This document shows positions 4,498 to 41,695 of a DNA stretch of 41,695 nt, piece by piece. Made by a program: the position numbers and the translations under genes. The notes under the pieces were generated by a model. The model saw only the letters and a program-made list of their open reading frames with translations. It was not told the origin of the DNA and did no database searches. The stretch's first letter is position 1. Each line of letters starts with the position of its first letter. Source of the DNA: a virus. The stretch covers positions 1 through 41,695 of the IMG/VR virus record IMGVR_UViG_3300010364_000001. One strand, written 5' to 3'.

Positions 4498-4532
4498 AAA
4501 AAAATGCAGACTTTTTAGATCTGCATTTTTAA
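4498..4532. terminator. Terminator-like hairpin 1 upstream of terS
   Basis: AAAATGCAGA (4501-4510) pairs with TCTGCATTTT (4520-4529), with A- and T-runs on both sides so it could work in either direction. A nearly identical hairpin follows at 4586-4613. Both lie between the divergent genes terS and 4793, where a terminator is not expected; they could instead be part of a packaging site. Confidence 0.65.
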
Positions 4533-4686
4533 AAGGGAATAATCTTGGTCGGACTTCTGTTATGAAATATTATAAATGAAAGTAAAAAATGCAGACTTTT
4601 AGGTCTGCATTTTGAAAAAAGGATTCTTTTTGCGGAGCCGAACCGAGAAATTAAATTTAGAAGCGCTAATTTAATAAGAATAATCG
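4533..4686. other. Non-coding segment upstream of terS, possible packaging region
   Basis: No convincing gene is seen here. The segment holds the second hairpin and two GC-rich islands in very AT-rich DNA: GGTCGGAC at 4547-4554 and GCGGAGCCGAACCGAG at 4632-4647. Cos and pac sites often lie just before terS, so this is the best place in the genome to look for one. Nothing in the sequence proves it. Confidence 0.3.
4586..4613. terminator. Terminator-like hairpin 2 upstream of terS
   Basis: AAAATGCAGAC (4586-4596) pairs exactly with GTCTGCATTTT (4603-4613). It shares stem sequence with the hairpin at 4501-4529, so one is a copy of the other. Confidence 0.65.
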
Positions 4687-4781
4687 GTTTTTAAATGTTA
4701 AAGTTTTTAAAAAGATTAGTTTTGATATTGTATATACGAAATCATGTTGTATATTTGCATCAGCAATAAAGCAAAACAAAT
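4687..4781 (+). repeat. 95-bp direct repeat carrying a promoter, copy 1
   Basis: Identical over 95 bases to 5394-5488. It contains a complete Bacteroidota promoter: TTG at 4728-4730, a 19-base spacer and TATATTTG at 4750-4757. The repeat ends 11 bases before the ATG of the 174-aa gene at 4793. Perfect identity suggests a recent duplication or active gene conversion. Confidence 0.95.
4728..4757 (+). promoter_or_regulatory. Strong Bacteroidota promoter (copy 1)
   Basis: TTG, 19-base spacer, TATATTTG: a near-consensus match to the TTG/TAnnTTTG promoter of Bacteroidota. Transcription would start near 4763 and give a leader of about 30 bases for the gene at 4793. Confidence 0.8.
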
Positions 4782-5317: not shown

Positions 5318-5393
5318 CAAAAAACTATAAAACAAAGCTGATGACTAAAACCAATAATCTTCGTAAGAAAATTCAATATTATGAAGATAATTT

Positions 5394-5488
5394 GTTTTTA
5401 AATGTTAAAGTTTTTAAAAAGATTAGTTTTGATATTGTATATACGAAATCATGTTGTATATTTGCATCAGCAATAAAGCAAAACAAAT
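5394..5488 (+). repeat. 95-bp direct repeat carrying a promoter, copy 2
   Basis: Exact copy of 4687-4781, ending 15 bases before the ATG at 5504. It directly follows the short reading frame that opens at 5341 (MTKTNNLRKKIQYYEDN), which looks like the beginning of a real gene cut short where the repeat begins. Confidence 0.95.
5435..5464 (+). promoter_or_regulatory. Strong Bacteroidota promoter (copy 2)
   Basis: Same TTG, 19-base spacer and TATATTTG as at 4728-4757, inside the duplicated block. It would drive the gene at 5504 and the small genes behind it. Confidence 0.8.
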
Positions 5489-8115: not shown

Positions 8116-8123
8116 TAAATTTG
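8116..8123 (+). promoter_or_regulatory. -7 element in front of pseudoknot RNA 1
   Basis: TAAATTTG matches TAnnTTTG. Initiation five to eight bases later would begin the transcript at about 8130, exactly where stem A of the RNA starts. The -33 TTG is not obvious. Confidence 0.55.
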
Positions 8124-8129
8124 CAATTG

Positions 8130-8215
8130 TAGAGTCGTCGCTACAATGTAAAATTTTATATGAATTCCCGCAAATGATAAGAACGACGACTCTTTGATTT
8201 TGCGGGTTTTTTTAT
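8130..8215 (+). ncRNA. Pseudoknot-type RNA element 1 ending in a terminator
   Basis: Stem A AGAGTCGTCG (8131-8140) pairs over 10 bp with CGACGACTCT (8184-8193). Stem B CCCGCAAA (8167-8174) pairs over 8 bp with TTTGCGGG (8199-8206), which is followed by a T-run. The order A-B-A'-B' gives either an H-type pseudoknot or a switch between two hairpins, the second an intrinsic terminator. Loops are 26, 9 and 5 bases. It lies between a -7 element and a GIY-YIG gene whose ATG (8218) is just past the terminator. The same layout recurs at 13208 and 13648. No known RNA family is recognised. Confidence 0.7.
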
Positions 8216-8217
8216 TT

Positions 8218-8661
8218 ATGATAGGTATTTATAAAATAATAAGTCCAACAAATAGAATTTATATTGGACAAAGTGTTAACATTAAAGAAAGATTTGGAAA
8301 TTATAAAAGATTAGATTGTAAATACCAACCTAAATTAAGACATTCTTTTTTAAAATATGGAGTTGAAAATCATTTATTTGAAGTAATGTGTGAATGTGAT
8401 GTTTCAGAATTAAATGAAAAAGAAAGATTTTATCAAGATTTATATTCAGTTTTAGAATCTGGACTTAATTGTATATTAACAAAAACCAATGATAGAAGTG
8501 GTTATTCTTGTGAAGAGACAAAACAAAAAATTGGAAGAGCTCATTTAGGTAAAAAACATAGTGAAGAAAGCATTGCTAAAATGAAAAAAGTTCAATCAAA
8601 TAGATCTCAAGAATGGCTTGAAAATAATAAAAAAGGAAATAAAAACAACAAATTTAAATAA
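8218..8661 (+). CDS. GIY-YIG endonuclease with NUMOD3-like tail
   Basis: A 147-residue homing-type nuclease. I chose the ATG at 8218 because the domain begins there (MIGIYKI) and the longer reading frame would run through the terminator hairpin. The GIY-YIG domain has GIY at 3-5, YIGQS at 16-20, the active-site Arg in IKERF, and Glu in NEKERFYQDLY. The tail has the NUMOD3 signature (SCEETKQKIGRAHLGKKHSEESIAKMKK), a DNA-recognition module of homing endonucleases. It is clearly related to the 110-aa gene at 33406-33738. It breaks the early operon directly after RNA element 1, so it may be inserted there. Confidence 0.87.
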   Translation: MIGIYKIISPTNRIYIGQSVNIKERFGNYKRLDCKYQPKLRHSFLKYGVENHLFEVMCECDVSELNEKERFYQDLYSVLESGLNCILTKTNDRSGYSCEETKQKIGRAHLGKKHSEESIAKMKKVQSNRSQEWLENNKKGNKNNKFK

Positions 8662-10354: not shown

Positions 10355-11587
10355 TTAATTGAAAAATGGATGTTCCATTAATTTATCGGCATTTTCCTGT
10401 TGACTGATCTTAATGTATTTCATAAATGATCTTTCCGTCTTATGTCCTGTCATTTTCATTATCGAAATAACCGGAACGTCGGCAAGATATAAATTTGTCG
10501 CAAAACTTCTTCGTGCTGTATGTGAAGAAATGAGTTCATATTTAAAATGCGTTGTTTTTTCTATCAGATTATGCTTTTTAATAGTTATCTCGATTAAATC
10601 TTTTATACCGGCTAATTTCGCTATTTTTCTCAAACGCTCGTTCATTGTTTGATTGCTGGATGATTTTGGCAATTTTGAATCGTATTTAACTATTATTTCC
10701 TTTACTATCCGATGCAGTGGAATTATTACTTTGGCACCAGTCTTTAATGTTCGTTTTATCACTGTTGAATTTTCAAGATTTATATTCTCTGGGTTGATAT
10801 GTGTGAAATCTGAAAATCTGAGCCCCGTGTAACATCCAATTAGAAATAAATCGCGCGTTTTATCCAATTTCGGATTTTTCGAAAGATCCAAATCTTTGAT
10901 TTTTTCAACCTCCTTTATATTAAGGTAGATGCTGTCTGAATCTTCAGAAACCGTTTTGAATTTCTTTTTACGAAATTCCAAATTTTCATTGAGTCCCCTT
11001 TCAGTCGCTTCATTCAAAAAGGATTTTATTGTTTTGATATGTTTTCCAATAGTGTTAATGGATAATGATTTTTCATTGGATAAAAATGCCAAATAATCAT
11101 TATAAAATGCTAAATCAATATTTTTAAAATCAATATACTTATGCTTTAAATTATACTGTTTCAGATATTTTAAAACAATTTCATAATCCTTTAAAGTAGA
11201 TTCTCTCCTGTTGTTTTCGCACTCCTTTATATACACTTCACAAAATTCTATAAATGTCTGTTTTTTAGTATTTATAGGAATACCATTTAACAAAGAATCT
11301 AAATGTTTTTTAAGGATTTGATTGTTTATTTCCATACCATCATTATGTAATTTTCTGAATATATTATTTATCGCGTGCTGAATATTATCCAGTTTGGTAT
11401 TGAATTCCTGATGCTCTGAAAACTGTTTGGATTCTTTTGCGCGATGTTCTTTTTGGTTCCAGAATTTAGGATCTATTTTTTCTTTCGTTGAATATTTAAA
11501 CCTATGATAATCGTAATTATAGGTAAGATAAACTAGAGTATCTTTTTTTGATTTCGGTTCCTTTAATATGAATTTTGCTCTTGACAT
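10355..11587 (-). CDS. int: Tyrosine recombinase (phage integrase)
   Basis: A 410-residue integrase that would join phage attP to a chromosomal attB and, with a helper, excise it. The N-terminal arm-binding domain (SRAKFILKEPKSKKDTLVYL, with KFWNQKEHRA) is the form typical of Bacteroidota phages and conjugative elements. A SAM-like core-binding domain covers about 110-205. The catalytic domain has Arg257 (GLR), Lys282 (TLKTG), His356-x-x-Arg359, His382 (GHK) and the nucleophile Tyr391, so it looks intact. No tRNA or obvious core repeat is adjacent, and attP is not located. Confidence 0.95.
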   Translation of the reverse strand: MSRAKFILKEPKSKKDTLVYLTYNYDYHRFKYSTKEKIDPKFWNQKEHRAKESKQFSEHQEFNTKLDNIQHAINNIFRKLHNDGMEINNQILKKHLDSLLNGIPINTKKQTFIEFCEVYIKECENNRRESTLKDYEIVLKYLKQYNLKHKYIDFKNIDLAFYNDYLAFLSNEKSLSINTIGKHIKTIKSFLNEATERGLNENLEFRKKKFKTVSEDSDSIYLNIKEVEKIKDLDLSKNPKLDKTRDLFLIGCYTGLRFSDFTHINPENINLENSTVIKRTLKTGAKVIIPLHRIVKEIIVKYDSKLPKSSSNQTMNERLRKIAKLAGIKDLIEITIKKHNLIEKTTHFKYELISSHTARRSFATNLYLADVPVISIMKMTGHKTERSFMKYIKISQQENADKLMEHPFFN

Positions 11588-12680: not shown

Positions 12681-13132
12681 TGAATCCAAACGAAAGCACA
12701 TTCAATAAAATATCAAGAAAATCAGGAAGAAAAATATCTTTCTGCAAATGTCAACAATGCAAAAAACAATGCACCGCCCCTTGTTTGGGAACTCCTGAAG
12801 ATATTGAAAAACTCATAGATGCAGGCTACAAAGACAAGATTTTAGAAACAACCTGGCTTGCAGGGATGATGATGGGAGCTGTTGACCATCCAATAGAAAT
12901 GTATCAAGCGGAACATAGGACAGACACAGGATTTTGTACGTTTTTTAAAGACGGTCTTTGTCAGCTCCATGATTTAGGATTGAAACCTACGGAGGGAAAA
13001 CTATCTCATCATTCTTTGAAAGCTGAAAACTGGACTGCTTCTAAATCAGTATCAATTTTAGTTGCAAAAGAATGGGAGAACCCTAAGAACAAAGAAATTA
13101 TTAATAGAATTATTGAAAAATTACCTAGATAA
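12680..13132 (+). CDS. YkgJ-like Cys-cluster (zinc/iron-chelating) protein
   Basis: A 150-residue protein with a cysteine cluster at 22, 24, 27, 31 and 35 (FCKCQQCKKQCTAPC) and a second group at 86 and 94 (FCTFFKDGLCQLH). The segment CLGTPEDIEKLIDAGY after the first group is characteristic of YkgJ-type proteins, which bind a metal or an Fe-S cluster. The biochemical role in phages is not established. It closes a block of four overlapping genes just before RNA element 2. Confidence 0.78.
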   Translation: MNPNESTFNKISRKSGRKISFCKCQQCKKQCTAPCLGTPEDIEKLIDAGYKDKILETTWLAGMMMGAVDHPIEMYQAEHRTDTGFCTFFKDGLCQLHDLGLKPTEGKLSHHSLKAENWTASKSVSILVAKEWENPKNKEIINRIIEKLPR

Positions 13133-13194
13133 AATAAAAGTTGAAGAAATTTAAATTTTAACATTTATTTTTTATGGATATTTAAAAAAGATTA

Positions 13195-13202
13195 TATATT
13201 TG
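13195..13202 (+). promoter_or_regulatory. -7 element of pseudoknot RNA 2
   Basis: TATATTTG, an exact match to TAnnTTTG, followed by the start of RNA element 2 within about 12 bases. Confidence 0.6.
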
Positions 13203-13207
13203 CACCG

Positions 13208-13310
13208 CAACGAAGTGAGATTCGTTTTTGAAATAAACATATCAGAAAAATATAATATAATCCCATTCGGGGCGGTGTATCTCACTTTAGCCAAACCGAT
13301 TGGGATTTGT
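13208..13310 (+). ncRNA. Pseudoknot-type RNA element 2
   Basis: Stem A AAGTGAGAT (13213-13221) pairs with ATCTCACTT (13279-13287). Stem B AATCCCATTCGG (13259-13270) pairs with CCGATTGGGATT (13296-13307) with a single T-T mismatch. The order is again A-B-A'-B', with loops of about 37, 8 and 8 bases. No T-run follows stem B closely, so unlike element 1 it is not an obvious terminator. A -7 element lies just upstream and the 82-aa gene starts 30 bases downstream. It shares stem A and flanking words with element 3. Confidence 0.7.
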
Positions 13311-13339
13311 CTTATATAATAGTTTTTTAAACAATCAAC

Positions 13340-13588
13340 ATGGAAGATCAACAAACAAAAAAAATATTTGATCCAGAAGAAATAGATGCAGAAGTTTTAG
13401 CAAAAGTAAAATCATTACCTAGAATTGATTTTGATGCGTTTACTGCACTTCATATTAGTGGTCAGGTTAAAAGATTGAAAAAATTAAAAAAACGTAGGAC
13501 AATTTTTTTTGATGAAGAAACTGGTTATTTTCTTTACTTAAACCCATTATATAAACAACTTCATAAATGTGGAGAATTCATAGAATAA
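13340..13588 (+). CDS. Small hypothetical protein between RNA elements 2 and 3
   Basis: An 82-residue protein with an acidic N-terminus (FDPEEIDAEVLAKVKSLPRIDF) and a very basic middle (KRLKKLKKRR, about 44-53), which could touch nucleic acid. No family recognised. It is the only gene between two related structured RNAs, so a link between protein and RNA deserves a look; nothing shows it directly. Confidence 0.68.
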   Translation: MEDQQTKKIFDPEEIDAEVLAKVKSLPRIDFDAFTALHISGQVKRLKKLKKRRTIFFDEETGYFLYLNPLYKQLHKCGEFIE

Positions 13589-13633
13589 ATATTAATATTA
13601 AGATTTATTCATAATTAATTATAAAATATTATT

Positions 13634-13641
13634 TAAATTTA
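13634..13641 (+). promoter_or_regulatory. -7-like element of pseudoknot RNA 3
   Basis: TAAATTTA, one mismatch from TAnnTTTG, at the same distance from stem A as the elements before RNAs 1 and 2. Confidence 0.4.
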
Positions 13642-13647
13642 TTATCC

Positions 13648-13750
13648 TTTAAAGCAGTGAGATACTTTAAGATAATTAAAAAACATCATATATCCCTATT
13701 ATTTATGGCTTATCTCACTTTCGAGCCTTAAACAATAGGGATATATTATA
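13648..13750 (+). ncRNA. Pseudoknot-type RNA element 3
   Basis: Stem A AGTGAGATA (13656-13664) pairs with TATCTCACT (13711-13719). Stem B ATATATCCCTATT (13688-13700) pairs perfectly over 13 bp with AATAGGGATATAT (13734-13746). Loops are 23, 10 and 14 bases in the order A-B-A'-B'. Relative to element 2, the A-T pair next to the CCC/GGG core of stem B has become T-A, a compensatory change. The ATCTCACTTT word and the AGCC after it are shared with element 2. It lies upstream of the initiator genes, 74 bases before the ATG at 13824. Confidence 0.7.
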
Positions 13751-13823
13751 TAAGCAAATTAAGAATACCAGTCCTCGGAAAAAAATCCGAATATAAATTA
13801 ATCAATAATCAAATTATAAAATC

Positions 13824-14102
13824 ATGAAAGACGAACAGCATATTATTATTCAAGGCTGGATGATAAATAAATTAAAATTAAGAGGCAACCAATTATTAAT
13901 CTATGCTATTATTTATGGATTTGTCCAAGATTTAAATACTGAATTTATCTGTGAAGCAGATTATTTTTATAAAACTTTAAATATTAGTGAATCTACATCA
14001 TTAAAATCAATAAGATCTTTAATTCGTAAGAAATATATATCAGAAAATAATGATAAAACAAACAATAACCATTTAAGAACTTATAAAATATATAAATTAT
14101 GA
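13824..14102 (+). CDS. Winged-helix protein, likely replication accessory
   Basis: A 92-residue winged-helix protein. The start IIIQGWMINKLKLRGNQLLIYAIIYGF matches the N-terminal domain of many phage replisome-organiser and DnaD-like proteins, and LNISESTSLKSIRSLIRKKYI forms the recognition helix and wing. Only that domain is present. It overlaps the initiator gene by four bases (ATGA), so the two are translated together. It may assist or regulate initiation at the iterons in the next gene. Confidence 0.78.
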   Translation: MKDEQHIIIQGWMINKLKLRGNQLLIYAIIYGFVQDLNTEFICEADYFYKTLNISESTSLKSIRSLIRKKYISENNDKTNNNHLRTYKIYKL

Positions 14103-14902
14103 GTTCAAAAATTAAAATGGCTTTTGATACCAAAATAGCTAAAATAGTTGGTACCGATGCTGCAATAATACTTTCTAACATAGAATTTTGGGTATTTAAA
14201 AACCAAGCTAACGAACATCATTTTTATGATGATGATTATTGGACTTACAATAGCATAAAAGCATTTGAAAAGATGTTTGATTATTTAAGTAGTGGCCAAA
14301 TAAGAACCTGTCTTGACAAGTTAGAAAAACAAGGTTTTCTTAAATCTGGTAATTATAATGAAACGAAATATGATAGGACAAAATGGTATTCTTTAGGATC
14401 TTCTTTTTATGAAATTACATCTGAAAATAACCATTTGTTGAAATCAACAAATGCATTTGTTGAAATTGACAAATGCATTTATTCAAATCAACAAATGGAT
14501 TTGTTGAAACCTGTAAATGGATTTGTTGAAATCAACAAACCTATACCAGATAATAAACCAGATAATAAACCAAATAATAAACCTTTTAAAGAAAATCAAG
14601 AAATTTTAAACGGTAATAGAAATGAAAATTTTGGAAATGAACTCTTGGAAAACGATAATTGGAAAGAATCTATTCTTATTCAAAATGAATTTTCTAAAAA
14701 AGGATGGGGATTTCAGCAATTAGAAATATTCATTCGGAATTTCAATGTAAAACTCAATTCCGAATTAGATATTAAAAATTCAAAAAAAGATTATGCTAGC
14801 CATTTCTCCAGATGGCTTTCAGGTGAAATAAAAAACCAAGAAAAAATTAAAATACAAAATTCAAATGGTACTCATCCGACTATGTCTCGTAGAATATCAT
14901 AA
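14099..14902 (+). CDS. Replication initiator, lambda O-like in layout
   Basis: A 267-residue protein with an N-terminal winged-helix DNA-binding domain (about 1-105; YWTYNSIKAFEKMFDYLSSGQIRTCLDKLEKQGFL carries the helices). A low-complexity linker covers about 110-175, and a C-terminal helical domain (NDNWKESILIQNEFSKKGW ... DYASHFSRWLSGEIKNQEK) is of the kind that contacts a helicase or loader. The linker DNA holds five 22-bp iterons and a 12-bp AT-rich repeat (PDNKPDNKPNNKP), so gene and origin appear to be one unit as in lambda O. The primase-helicase lies 0.4 kb downstream. Confidence 0.85.
   Translation: MSSKIKMAFDTKIAKIVGTDAAIILSNIEFWVFKNQANEHHFYDDDYWTYNSIKAFEKMFDYLSSGQIRTCLDKLEKQGFLKSGNYNETKYDRTKWYSLGSSFYEITSENNHLLKSTNAFVEIDKCIYSNQQMDLLKPVNGFVEINKPIPDNKPDNKPNNKPFKENQEILNGNRNENFGNELLENDNWKESILIQNEFSKKGWGFQQLEIFIRNFNVKLNSELDIKNSKKDYASHFSRWLSGEIKNQEKIKIQNSNGTHPTMSRRIS
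14432..14541 (+). repeat. Five tandem 22-bp iterons, probable replication origin
   Basis: Five head-to-tail units start at 14432, 14454, 14476, 14498 and 14520, each 22 bp. The first is a near-perfect palindrome with arms CATTTGTTGA and TCAACAAATG. Units 2 to 5 vary mostly in the right arm, and unit 5 ends imperfectly. Because 22 is not a multiple of three, the reading frame changes from unit to unit, so the repeat is conserved as DNA and not as protein. They are the likely binding sites of the initiator. Confidence 0.88.
14541..14583 (+). repeat. 12-bp AT-rich tandem repeat beside the iterons
   Basis: Three near-identical 12-bp units around ACCAGATAATAA, in frame as DNKP/NNKP. This AT-rich stretch directly after the iterons is a candidate duplex-unwinding element, by analogy with the lambda origin. 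Confidence 0.6.
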
Positions 14903-41010: not shown

Positions 41011-41685
41011 ATGACTATAACAAATGAATGCAATATGGAACTCATGAAACGCTATTCTAACAATTACTTTGATTTAGCTATTGTGGATCCGCCTTATTTT
41101 TCAGGACCTGAAAAAAGAAAATATTATGGGAATTCGATCAATAAACTAAATATAAAACGAACAGATTACAATCCATTAAATGATTCATGGAAATTACCTA
41201 CGGAAGAATATTTTAATGAATTATTCAGAGTTTCCAAAAACCAAATAATTTGGGGTTGCAATTATTATGCAAAATACATTCCATCAGTAGGCAGGATTGT
41301 TTGGAATAAAGTAAACGGCGAAAGTAGTTTTTCTGATGCGGAAATAGCTTCCTGTAGTTTTCATGATTCAGTAAGGCTTTTTTCTTTTATGTGGAACGGA
41401 ATGATGCAAGGAAGTGGCTTTGATGGAAAAGTAAACGGGAATAAAAAATTAAATGAAAAAAGAATACATCCGACTCAAAAACCTGTAGCATTATATAAAT
41501 GGATTTTAGATAAATATGCTAAACAAGATGATAAAATATTGGATACTCATTTAGGGTCAGGTAGTATCGCCATAGCTTGTTACGATTATGGATTTGAACT
41601 TACAGCATGTGAGATTAATAAAGATTATTTTGATAAATCAATTGAGCGAATAAATAATCATATCAGTCAACAGAAATTGTTTTAA
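41011..41685 (+). CDS. DNA adenine N6-methyltransferase
   Basis: A 224-residue DNA methylase of the DPPY group, transferring a methyl group from S-adenosylmethionine to adenine N6. Catalytic DPPY is at 26-29. HPTQKPV (153-159) is motif X, and DTHLGSGS (178-185) is a variant of the FxGxG SAM-binding motif I, so the motif order IV...X-I is the beta type. No restriction nuclease is nearby, so it is an orphan enzyme, which in phages usually protects DNA from host restriction or controls packaging and gene expression. The short region between DPPY and motif X would hold the recognition part; the target cannot be read from it. Confidence 0.92.
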   Translation: MTITNECNMELMKRYSNNYFDLAIVDPPYFSGPEKRKYYGNSINKLNIKRTDYNPLNDSWKLPTEEYFNELFRVSKNQIIWGCNYYAKYIPSVGRIVWNKVNGESSFSDAEIASCSFHDSVRLFSFMWNGMMQGSGFDGKVNGNKKLNEKRIHPTQKPVALYKWILDKYAKQDDKILDTHLGSGSIAIACYDYGFELTACEINKDYFDKSIERINNHISQQKLF

Positions 41686-41695
41686 TTATTAAAAA
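41573..41695. repeat. Terminal direct repeat, right copy
   Basis: Identical to bases 1-123. Joining the two ends restores an uninterrupted methyltransferase gene followed by the partition cassette, which supports a circular map. Confidence 0.95.

Follow-up and report, generated by a model that had tools for sequence, protein, structure and literature searches.

Two self-complementary sequences that share the same complementary words flank a small gene ahead of the replication initiator of a virus, and this raises the question of whether they are regulatory RNAs and, if so, what they regulate. The window, i.e., the whole stretch of DNA analyzed, is a virus record of 41,695 bp with a 123-bp direct terminal repeat (1-123 and 41573-41695), which makes it likely that the genome is complete and either circular or terminally redundant. 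It codes for a tyrosine integrase (10355-11587), a ParA-like partition protein, a replication initiator, and a Toprim primase-helicase; a tRNA/tmRNA search gave no match. Promoter elements of the form TAnnTTTG, the -7 element of the Bacteroidota promoter consensus (PMC7366714), together with AT-rich DNA, point to a probable Bacteroidota host. Genes for ParA-like and ribbon-helix-helix proteins (725-1829) alongside the tyrosine integrase make a phage-plasmid lifestyle possible, and RNA copy control would fit such a lifestyle. Repeats of other kinds were also observed: four 22-bp near-perfect tandem repeats of the CATTTGTTGAAATCAACAAATG type within the initiator gene (14432-14541), which resemble initiator-binding iterons, so that the origin may lie inside this gene, as in lambda O; a promoter-containing 114-bp duplicate, 94% identical, with each copy before a different small gene (4668-4781, 5375-5488); and two near-identical terminator-like hairpins in series (4505-4530 and 4589-4612; AAAAATGCAGACTTTT..TCTGCATTTTT).

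The first-pass annotation had proposed that the two sequences are interleaved RNAs built on common words. Sequence inspection and pattern search confirmed that both elements are real, and the observation is larger than first described. E1 (13209-13307) and E2 (13648-13746) are joined on the same (+) strand by E3 (8126-8215), which is probably the third element that the annotation had mentioned. Word A (AGTGAGAT) is found at 13214-13221 in E1 and 13656-13663 in E2, with A' (ATCTCACTTT) at 13279-13288 and 13712-13721, and the order in the window is A-A'-A-A'; the pattern AGTGAGAT-N30-60-ATCTCACT occurs twice, versus 0.00 expected. The A-B-A'-B' order, the perfect 13-bp outer stem of E2 H2, the exchange of an A-T for a T-A pair beside CCC/GGG, and the AGCC word were all recovered. 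RNA folding of E1 and E2 predicted a small 5' hairpin, H1, and a long second hairpin, H2, with the complementary words AGTGAGAT and ATCTCACT in their loops (Table 1). In E1, E2, and E3 alike, word A is the loop of its own small hairpin, not merely the arm of a long-range stem, and is predicted to kiss the ~24-nt loop of H2, which carries A'. Interleaved pairing is kept, and two hairpins with kissing loops describe the fold better than a plain pseudoknot. The A-A' kiss is compatible with the B-B' stem, and the fold alone therefore implies no obligatory switch; a two-state switch is possible. E1 and E2, both in this genome, retained one word while their stems diverged.

Table 1. Elements, promoter elements, and neighboring genes in the window
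Feature	Position	Strand	Evidence or remarks
-7 promoter element TAAATTTG before E3	8116..8123	+	perfect TAnnTTTG
E3 H1, ATTGTAG-AGTCGTCG-CTACAAT; word A AGAGTCGTCG 8131-8140	8126..8147	+	finder
E3 H2, core CCCGCAAA 8167-8174 / TTTGCGGG 8199-8206; A' CGACGACTCT 8184-8193	8158..8215	+	finder, interleaved-helix scan, 0/4000 shuffles
GIY-YIG homing endonuclease, directly behind E3	8218..8661	+	PF01541, phrog_314 7e-20
-7 promoter element TATATTTG before E1	13195..13202	+	TAnnTTTG match
E1 H1, AACGAA-GTGAGA-TTCGTT; word A AAGTGAGAT 13213-13221	13209..13226	+	finder, RNA fold
E1 H2, arms 13259-13276 / 13290-13307; loop A' ATCTCACTT 13279-13287	13259..13307	+	finder, 0/4000 shuffles
82-aa gene behind E1	13340..13588	+	no Pfam or PHROG match; pI 7.8
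E2 H1, TTTAAAG-CAGTGAGATA-CTTTAAG; word A AGTGAGATA 13656-13664	13648..13671	+	finder, RNA fold
E2 H2, arms 13688-13710 / 13724-13746; loop A' TATCTCACT 13711-13719	13688..13746	+	finder, 0/4000 shuffles, inverted repeat I12
92-aa DnaD-like / winged-helix protein	13824..14102	+	phrog_6969 6e-15, phrog_186 5e-4
Replication initiation protein	14099..14902	+	phrog_11233 E 4e-36

The surroundings of the elements were in part as annotated earlier. Both E1 and E2 do precede the replication initiator, with the DnaD-like gene in between. A -7-like element had been claimed for each: that of E1 matches TAnnTTTG perfectly and E2 has none, while E3 also has one. The 82-aa protein had been called basic and is in fact near neutral (15 K/R and 14 D/E). 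A type III toxin-antitoxin RNA, which would consist of short pseudoknot repeats in tandem beside a toxin gene of the ToxN/AbiQ type, was considered and rejected, as this neighbor lacks any Pfam or PHROG match and no tandem short repeats occur at the elements. H2 of E3 (CCCGCAAA...TTTGCGGGTTTTTTT) has the form of an intrinsic terminator, with a T-run from 8207, and stops a few bases short of the endonuclease ATG.

To search for the layout, a finder was used on both strands that requires two successive hairpins, H1 displaying word A in its loop and H2 displaying the complementary word in its own; its scoring was set by hand after inspection of E1-E3. The three top + strand scores in the window were those of E2 (78.5), E3 (69.5), and E1 (65.5), and the best score over 20 dinucleotide shuffles of the whole window was 60.0. 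A plain A-B-A'-B' scan that did not require H1 left E1 out of its top list; it was the kissing-hairpin model that separated E1. In a further series (SIGNIFICANCE), 4000 dinucleotide shuffles were scored per promoter-to-ATG segment, for the window elements and the relatives described below. The observed score was reached by none of the 4000 for E1, E2, E3, L027, elemoE, elemoA_7-9A, elemoA_13-1A, L122a, L128, L129, L142, and L145; by 1-22 for L079, L098, L084, L085, L100, L141, and L154; and by 41 for L122b, which was scored in a different register from the by-eye reading. L079, L098, L085, elemoA_7-9A, elemoA_13-1A, L129, and L145 were reached via flank or gene homology, not by the finder, so that selection bias is limited, though not removed. 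The matrix of complementarity between H1 and H2 loops across members is mostly diagonal (7-11, versus mostly 3-6 elsewhere); off the diagonal, E1 and E2 match each other, as expected, and a few more entries are also long. H2 stems contain 23 G-U versus 2 A-C oppositions, which indicates that the functional RNA is the promoter-sense (+) strand.

Relatives were reached through replication proteins, and then by the finder or by reading homologous promoter regions. This gave approximately 18 distinct members from Flavobacterium phage elemo, a Bacteroides uniformis phage, and metagenomic phages, nearly all of them positioned ahead of replication operons; the genes behind them encode an initiator, a DnaD-like protein, or other replication proteins, with the exceptions of E3 and, directly, E1. 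The layout is common to all, although the sequences are not: stems and loop words differ nearly everywhere and pairing is retained. The kiss words are GTCGAGG in L027-29, GTAGAG in L084, AGTCCTAC in L079/L098, and GGTCGAA in L085/L100, an identical 36-bp promoter sequence being common to L084, L079, and L085; in elemo, they are GTGGAGG (elemoE), TGAGAGC (elemoA_7-9A), and GTGAGATG (elemoA_13-1A). The Bacteroides uniformis phage C3_41T2LP has two tandem elements, L122a and L122b, with AGGTGATAGT and, by eye, TGGTGGCGA/TCGCCACCA, which have no common word. Further members are L128, L129, L141, L142, L145, and L154. The typical geometry is constant, i.e., a promoter, usually 2-22 nt, H1, 17-45 nt, and H2, with ~8-9 nt flanking A' in the H2 loop, and the only sequence conserved across members is that of short loop flanks. 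Covariation in homologues, on which the first-pass annotation had staked its proposal, is present as compensatory change in relatives elsewhere. Its interpretation was partly supported: a family of interleaved RNAs with kept pairing exists and extends far beyond the window.

Searches by sequence did not recover this family. The exact stem-A pattern in IMG/VR gave mostly unrelated matches and one contig identical to the window over the covered part, which indicates that a sequence search misses kissing-loop relatives. DNA similarity was absent when 13100-13850 was compared with the phage collection at distant sensitivity, and neither of two indirect comparisons, with this collection and with Rfam, gave homology to P4 cI. 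Rfam 15 gave no match in the window at the gathering threshold, and relaxed searches of E1 and E2 gave only low-scoring miRNA/snoRNA models (best, 25.4 bits against a cut-off of 66). No element above threshold occurred in the other 45 kb of elemoA or 46 kb of C3_41T2LP. No convincing element was found beside rep in Bacteroides fragilis phages B124-14, BF3-TP1, and BF8P1, which have a related initiator, or in Vibrio and Pseudoalteromonas phages with related initiators, and the genome-collection relatives L110-L117, mostly from other phyla, gave chance-level matches. Two other arrangements were seen along the way. In L040 (4762-4845) and L041 (~2675-2756), kissing hairpins whose 9-nt loops covary (TAGCGGGGT, TTGCCGGAC) lie upstream of initiator homologues, on the - strand, which is opposite to that of the homologues. 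L096, L105, L106, and L109 share a 25-bp promoter followed by a non-kissing hairpin, a terminator, and a second TATATTTG promoter; this hairpin is maybe an unrelated small RNA.

The elemo phages show how variable the element is. In a 100-nt window over the element, elemoA_7-9A and elemoA_13-1A, which carry one species name, differ by 27 mismatches and 14 gap columns, whereas the next 2.8 kb (rep, primase) is mostly 98-100% identical among elemoA isolates, with one window having a 6-nt gap. Between elemoE and elemoA, the promoter side and the T-run side are near-identical and the core between them is different; the replication gene behind also differs. The loop pairs at this one site are compensatory (GTGGAGG/CCTCCAC, TGAGAGC/GCTCTCA, and GTGAGATG/CATCTCAC), and the three alleles occur in 59, 4, and 5 of 68 records, RefSeq duplicates included. 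A tRNA gene upstream of the element (L123, L126, L120; ~5780-5880 of L123) is tRNA-Ala in some and tRNA-Met in others, in an otherwise conserved region; since this neighboring region is also variable, local recombination is a likely route of change. H1 of elemoA_13-1A (L126) includes TTTCGAGGTG, whose 10 nt are perfectly complementary to the H2 loop of elemoE (L120) and exceed the own kiss of either allele in length; this is possibly cross-talk or a trace of ancestry.

A second form of covariation involves three sites. L128, L129, and L145 have a third copy of word A, A'', just before the ATG; their downstream proteins show ~71-73% identity to the L128 protein. The sequences of A, A', and A'' are CAGCTAC/GTAGCTG/CAGCTAC, CAGTCAC/GTGACTG/CAGTCAC, and CAACCAC/GTGGTTG/CAACCAC, respectively: the outer letters are fixed and the central triplet changes jointly at all three sites. 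Such three-way covariation is hard to explain unless A' pairs with both A and A''.

Taken together, these data tentatively suggest that the leader encodes a regulatory RNA, complementary to itself, which attenuates or represses the replication operon in the manner of P4 CI or P1/P7 c4 and is apparently unrelated to these in sequence. We prefer this reading while regarding it as far from secure. The elements would be leader RNAs encoded in cis, mostly ahead of phage replication operons and in a few cases ahead of others, with transcription presumably starting in most members at the TAnnTTTG promoter directly before H1. The H1 loop would present the 6-10-nt word A and H2, usually terminator-like, would bear A' near the middle of its ~24-nt loop, so that the two loops could kiss in cis. 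Most transcripts would end after H2, producing a ~90-120-nt RNA that, having the same A/A' words, could pair in trans with H1 of nascent sibling leaders and, in one subgroup, also with A'' just before the start codon. Rising concentrations of this short RNA would then reduce read-through into, or translation of, the replication genes. Specificity would be set by the word: phages with the same word would repress each other and phages with different words would not, and the element may thus act as a determinant of RNA immunity, incompatibility, or copy control. The word shared by E1 and E2 and the A'' before the ATG are what a P4/c4-type circuit would need. Against trans action, A'' was found in only three members, the two tandem elements of C3_41T2LP differ in word, and matches of 8-10 nt to the words elsewhere in the loci were many, none being convincing except those between E1 and E2. 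The elemoA record has no annotated integrase, and classical lysogenic immunity would therefore not apply there, the lifestyle being deduced from annotation. Related Baltic Flavobacterium phages are described in PMC7077304, in which elemo is not named.

The main rival is a cis-only attenuator or 5'-UTR switch, in which the loop kiss would tune H2 termination or translation of its own transcript in response to transcription speed, a host protein, or a metabolite, with no trans product. This is a plausible account, if not a probable one: the words of most members find a partner only inside the same element, the loop geometry is constant, and H2 is terminator-like and in many members near the start codon. 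A T-rich tract follows H2 in E3, L084, L079, L085, the elemo alleles, L129, L142, L145, and L154, whereas E1, E2, and the two C3_41T2LP elements have a weak T-run or none; this counts against the preferred reading as well and is the chief anatomical obstacle to a model based on termination alone. In L079, A' could be read by eye as pairing with B to form an antiterminator, but this was not general among members. A switch acting only in cis would not need to change its word, yet hypervariability is concentrated in the element and the flanks are near-identical, and E1 and E2 kept one word despite the divergence of their stems.

An RNA directed outward, i.e., a small RNA or decoy against a host RNA, a defense system, or another phage, varying in an arms race and using the replication operon as a convenient promoter, appears improbable. 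Hypervariability of the element and of the adjacent elemo tRNA gene region would be expected of it, and a terminated small RNA is plausible, but strict A-A' complementarity in cis and A'' at the phage's own start codon indicate a self target, and the replication-operon position recurs. Slightly less probable still is a binding site for a phage protein that recognizes RNA shape, such as an autoregulating initiator or an antitermination factor. Constancy of shape and position would suit such a site; however, elemoA isolates with strongly different elements have almost the same initiator and primase, L079 and L098 have the same element before different replication genes, and conservation is confined to the short loop flanks. 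The elemo alleles and the L079/L098 pair speak against a fixed-sequence binding site for a downstream-encoded protein. Inverted repeats arising by chance in AT-rich intergenic sequence, or DNA operators such as the 8-bp inverted pair common to E1 and E2 might form, are a nearly negligible explanation, already largely refuted by the shuffle tests, the recurrence of one layout with different sequences in many phages, and the one-strand G-U bias.

A leader-encoded repressor RNA of the preferred kind would have precedents with instructive differences. The c4 antisense RNA of P1/P7 is processed from a longer transcript, controls the antirepressor operon, and has loop words that are complementary to the start of the downstream gene on the same transcript and differ between heteroimmune phages. 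The present elements resemble c4 in their variable loops and, in L128, L129, and L145 and in no other member seen, in a loop word that is complementary to the downstream gene start; unlike c4, they head a replication operon. In plasmids, rep leaders are controlled by an antisense RNA from the opposite strand, by attenuation in pT181/pIP501 or through a loop-loop pseudoknot in ColIb-P9 repZ, and loop changes define incompatibility groups; initiator-gene leaders with hairpin loops as pairing sites are common to both, whereas here the complement lies on the same strand. In P4, processing of an untranslated transcript yields the CI RNA, whose pairing with seqA and seqC terminates transcription of the replication operon, and IsrK of Gifsy-1 has been called a structural relative of the SeqA RNA (PMC4825925). 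Our elements share with P4 an untranslated replication-operon leader, a sense-strand RNA with internal complementarity, and (here predicted) termination in the leader. Like seqA/seqB/seqC, copies of the target word lie up- and downstream of the complement as A-A'-A'' in the L128 subgroup and A-A'-A-A' at E1/E2; most members have A-A' only. Unlike in P4, the word is located in kissing hairpin loops, H2 itself resembles an intrinsic terminator, the words differ almost phage by phage, the hosts are Bacteroidota, no sequence similarity was found, and action in trans is what we infer.

To our knowledge, only a few phages and satellites of enterobacteria are known to have leader-encoded immunity RNAs. 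A counterpart of conserved structure and hypervariable sequence at the heads of replication operons in Bacteroidota phages of the gut and the sea and in Flavobacterium isolates would show RNA-based control of phage replication to be far more widespread. Such a family is hard to find by covariance models because it has almost no conserved sequence and its key contact is between loops. With elemoA_7-9A and elemoA_13-1A, which share one host and differ in the element and hardly in the genes behind it, and with elemoE, the question is directly testable. A bolder possibility, which we consider rather unlikely as it stands, is a widespread code among Bacteroidota phages with and without integrase, in which a short covarying word (A, A', and in some cases A''), where shared, marks phages that regulate one another's replication or exclude it, and a few concerted letter changes create new compatibility groups. 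If this were true, it would be an RNA immunity or incompatibility mechanism in both kinds of phage. If the RNAs act in trans, compatibility between phages would be predictable from the words, which could also be used as programmable repressors in Bacteroidota. Pairing that is kept despite changed letters suggests an RNA switch of the viruses' own making, which may determine which of them are able to shut each other off.
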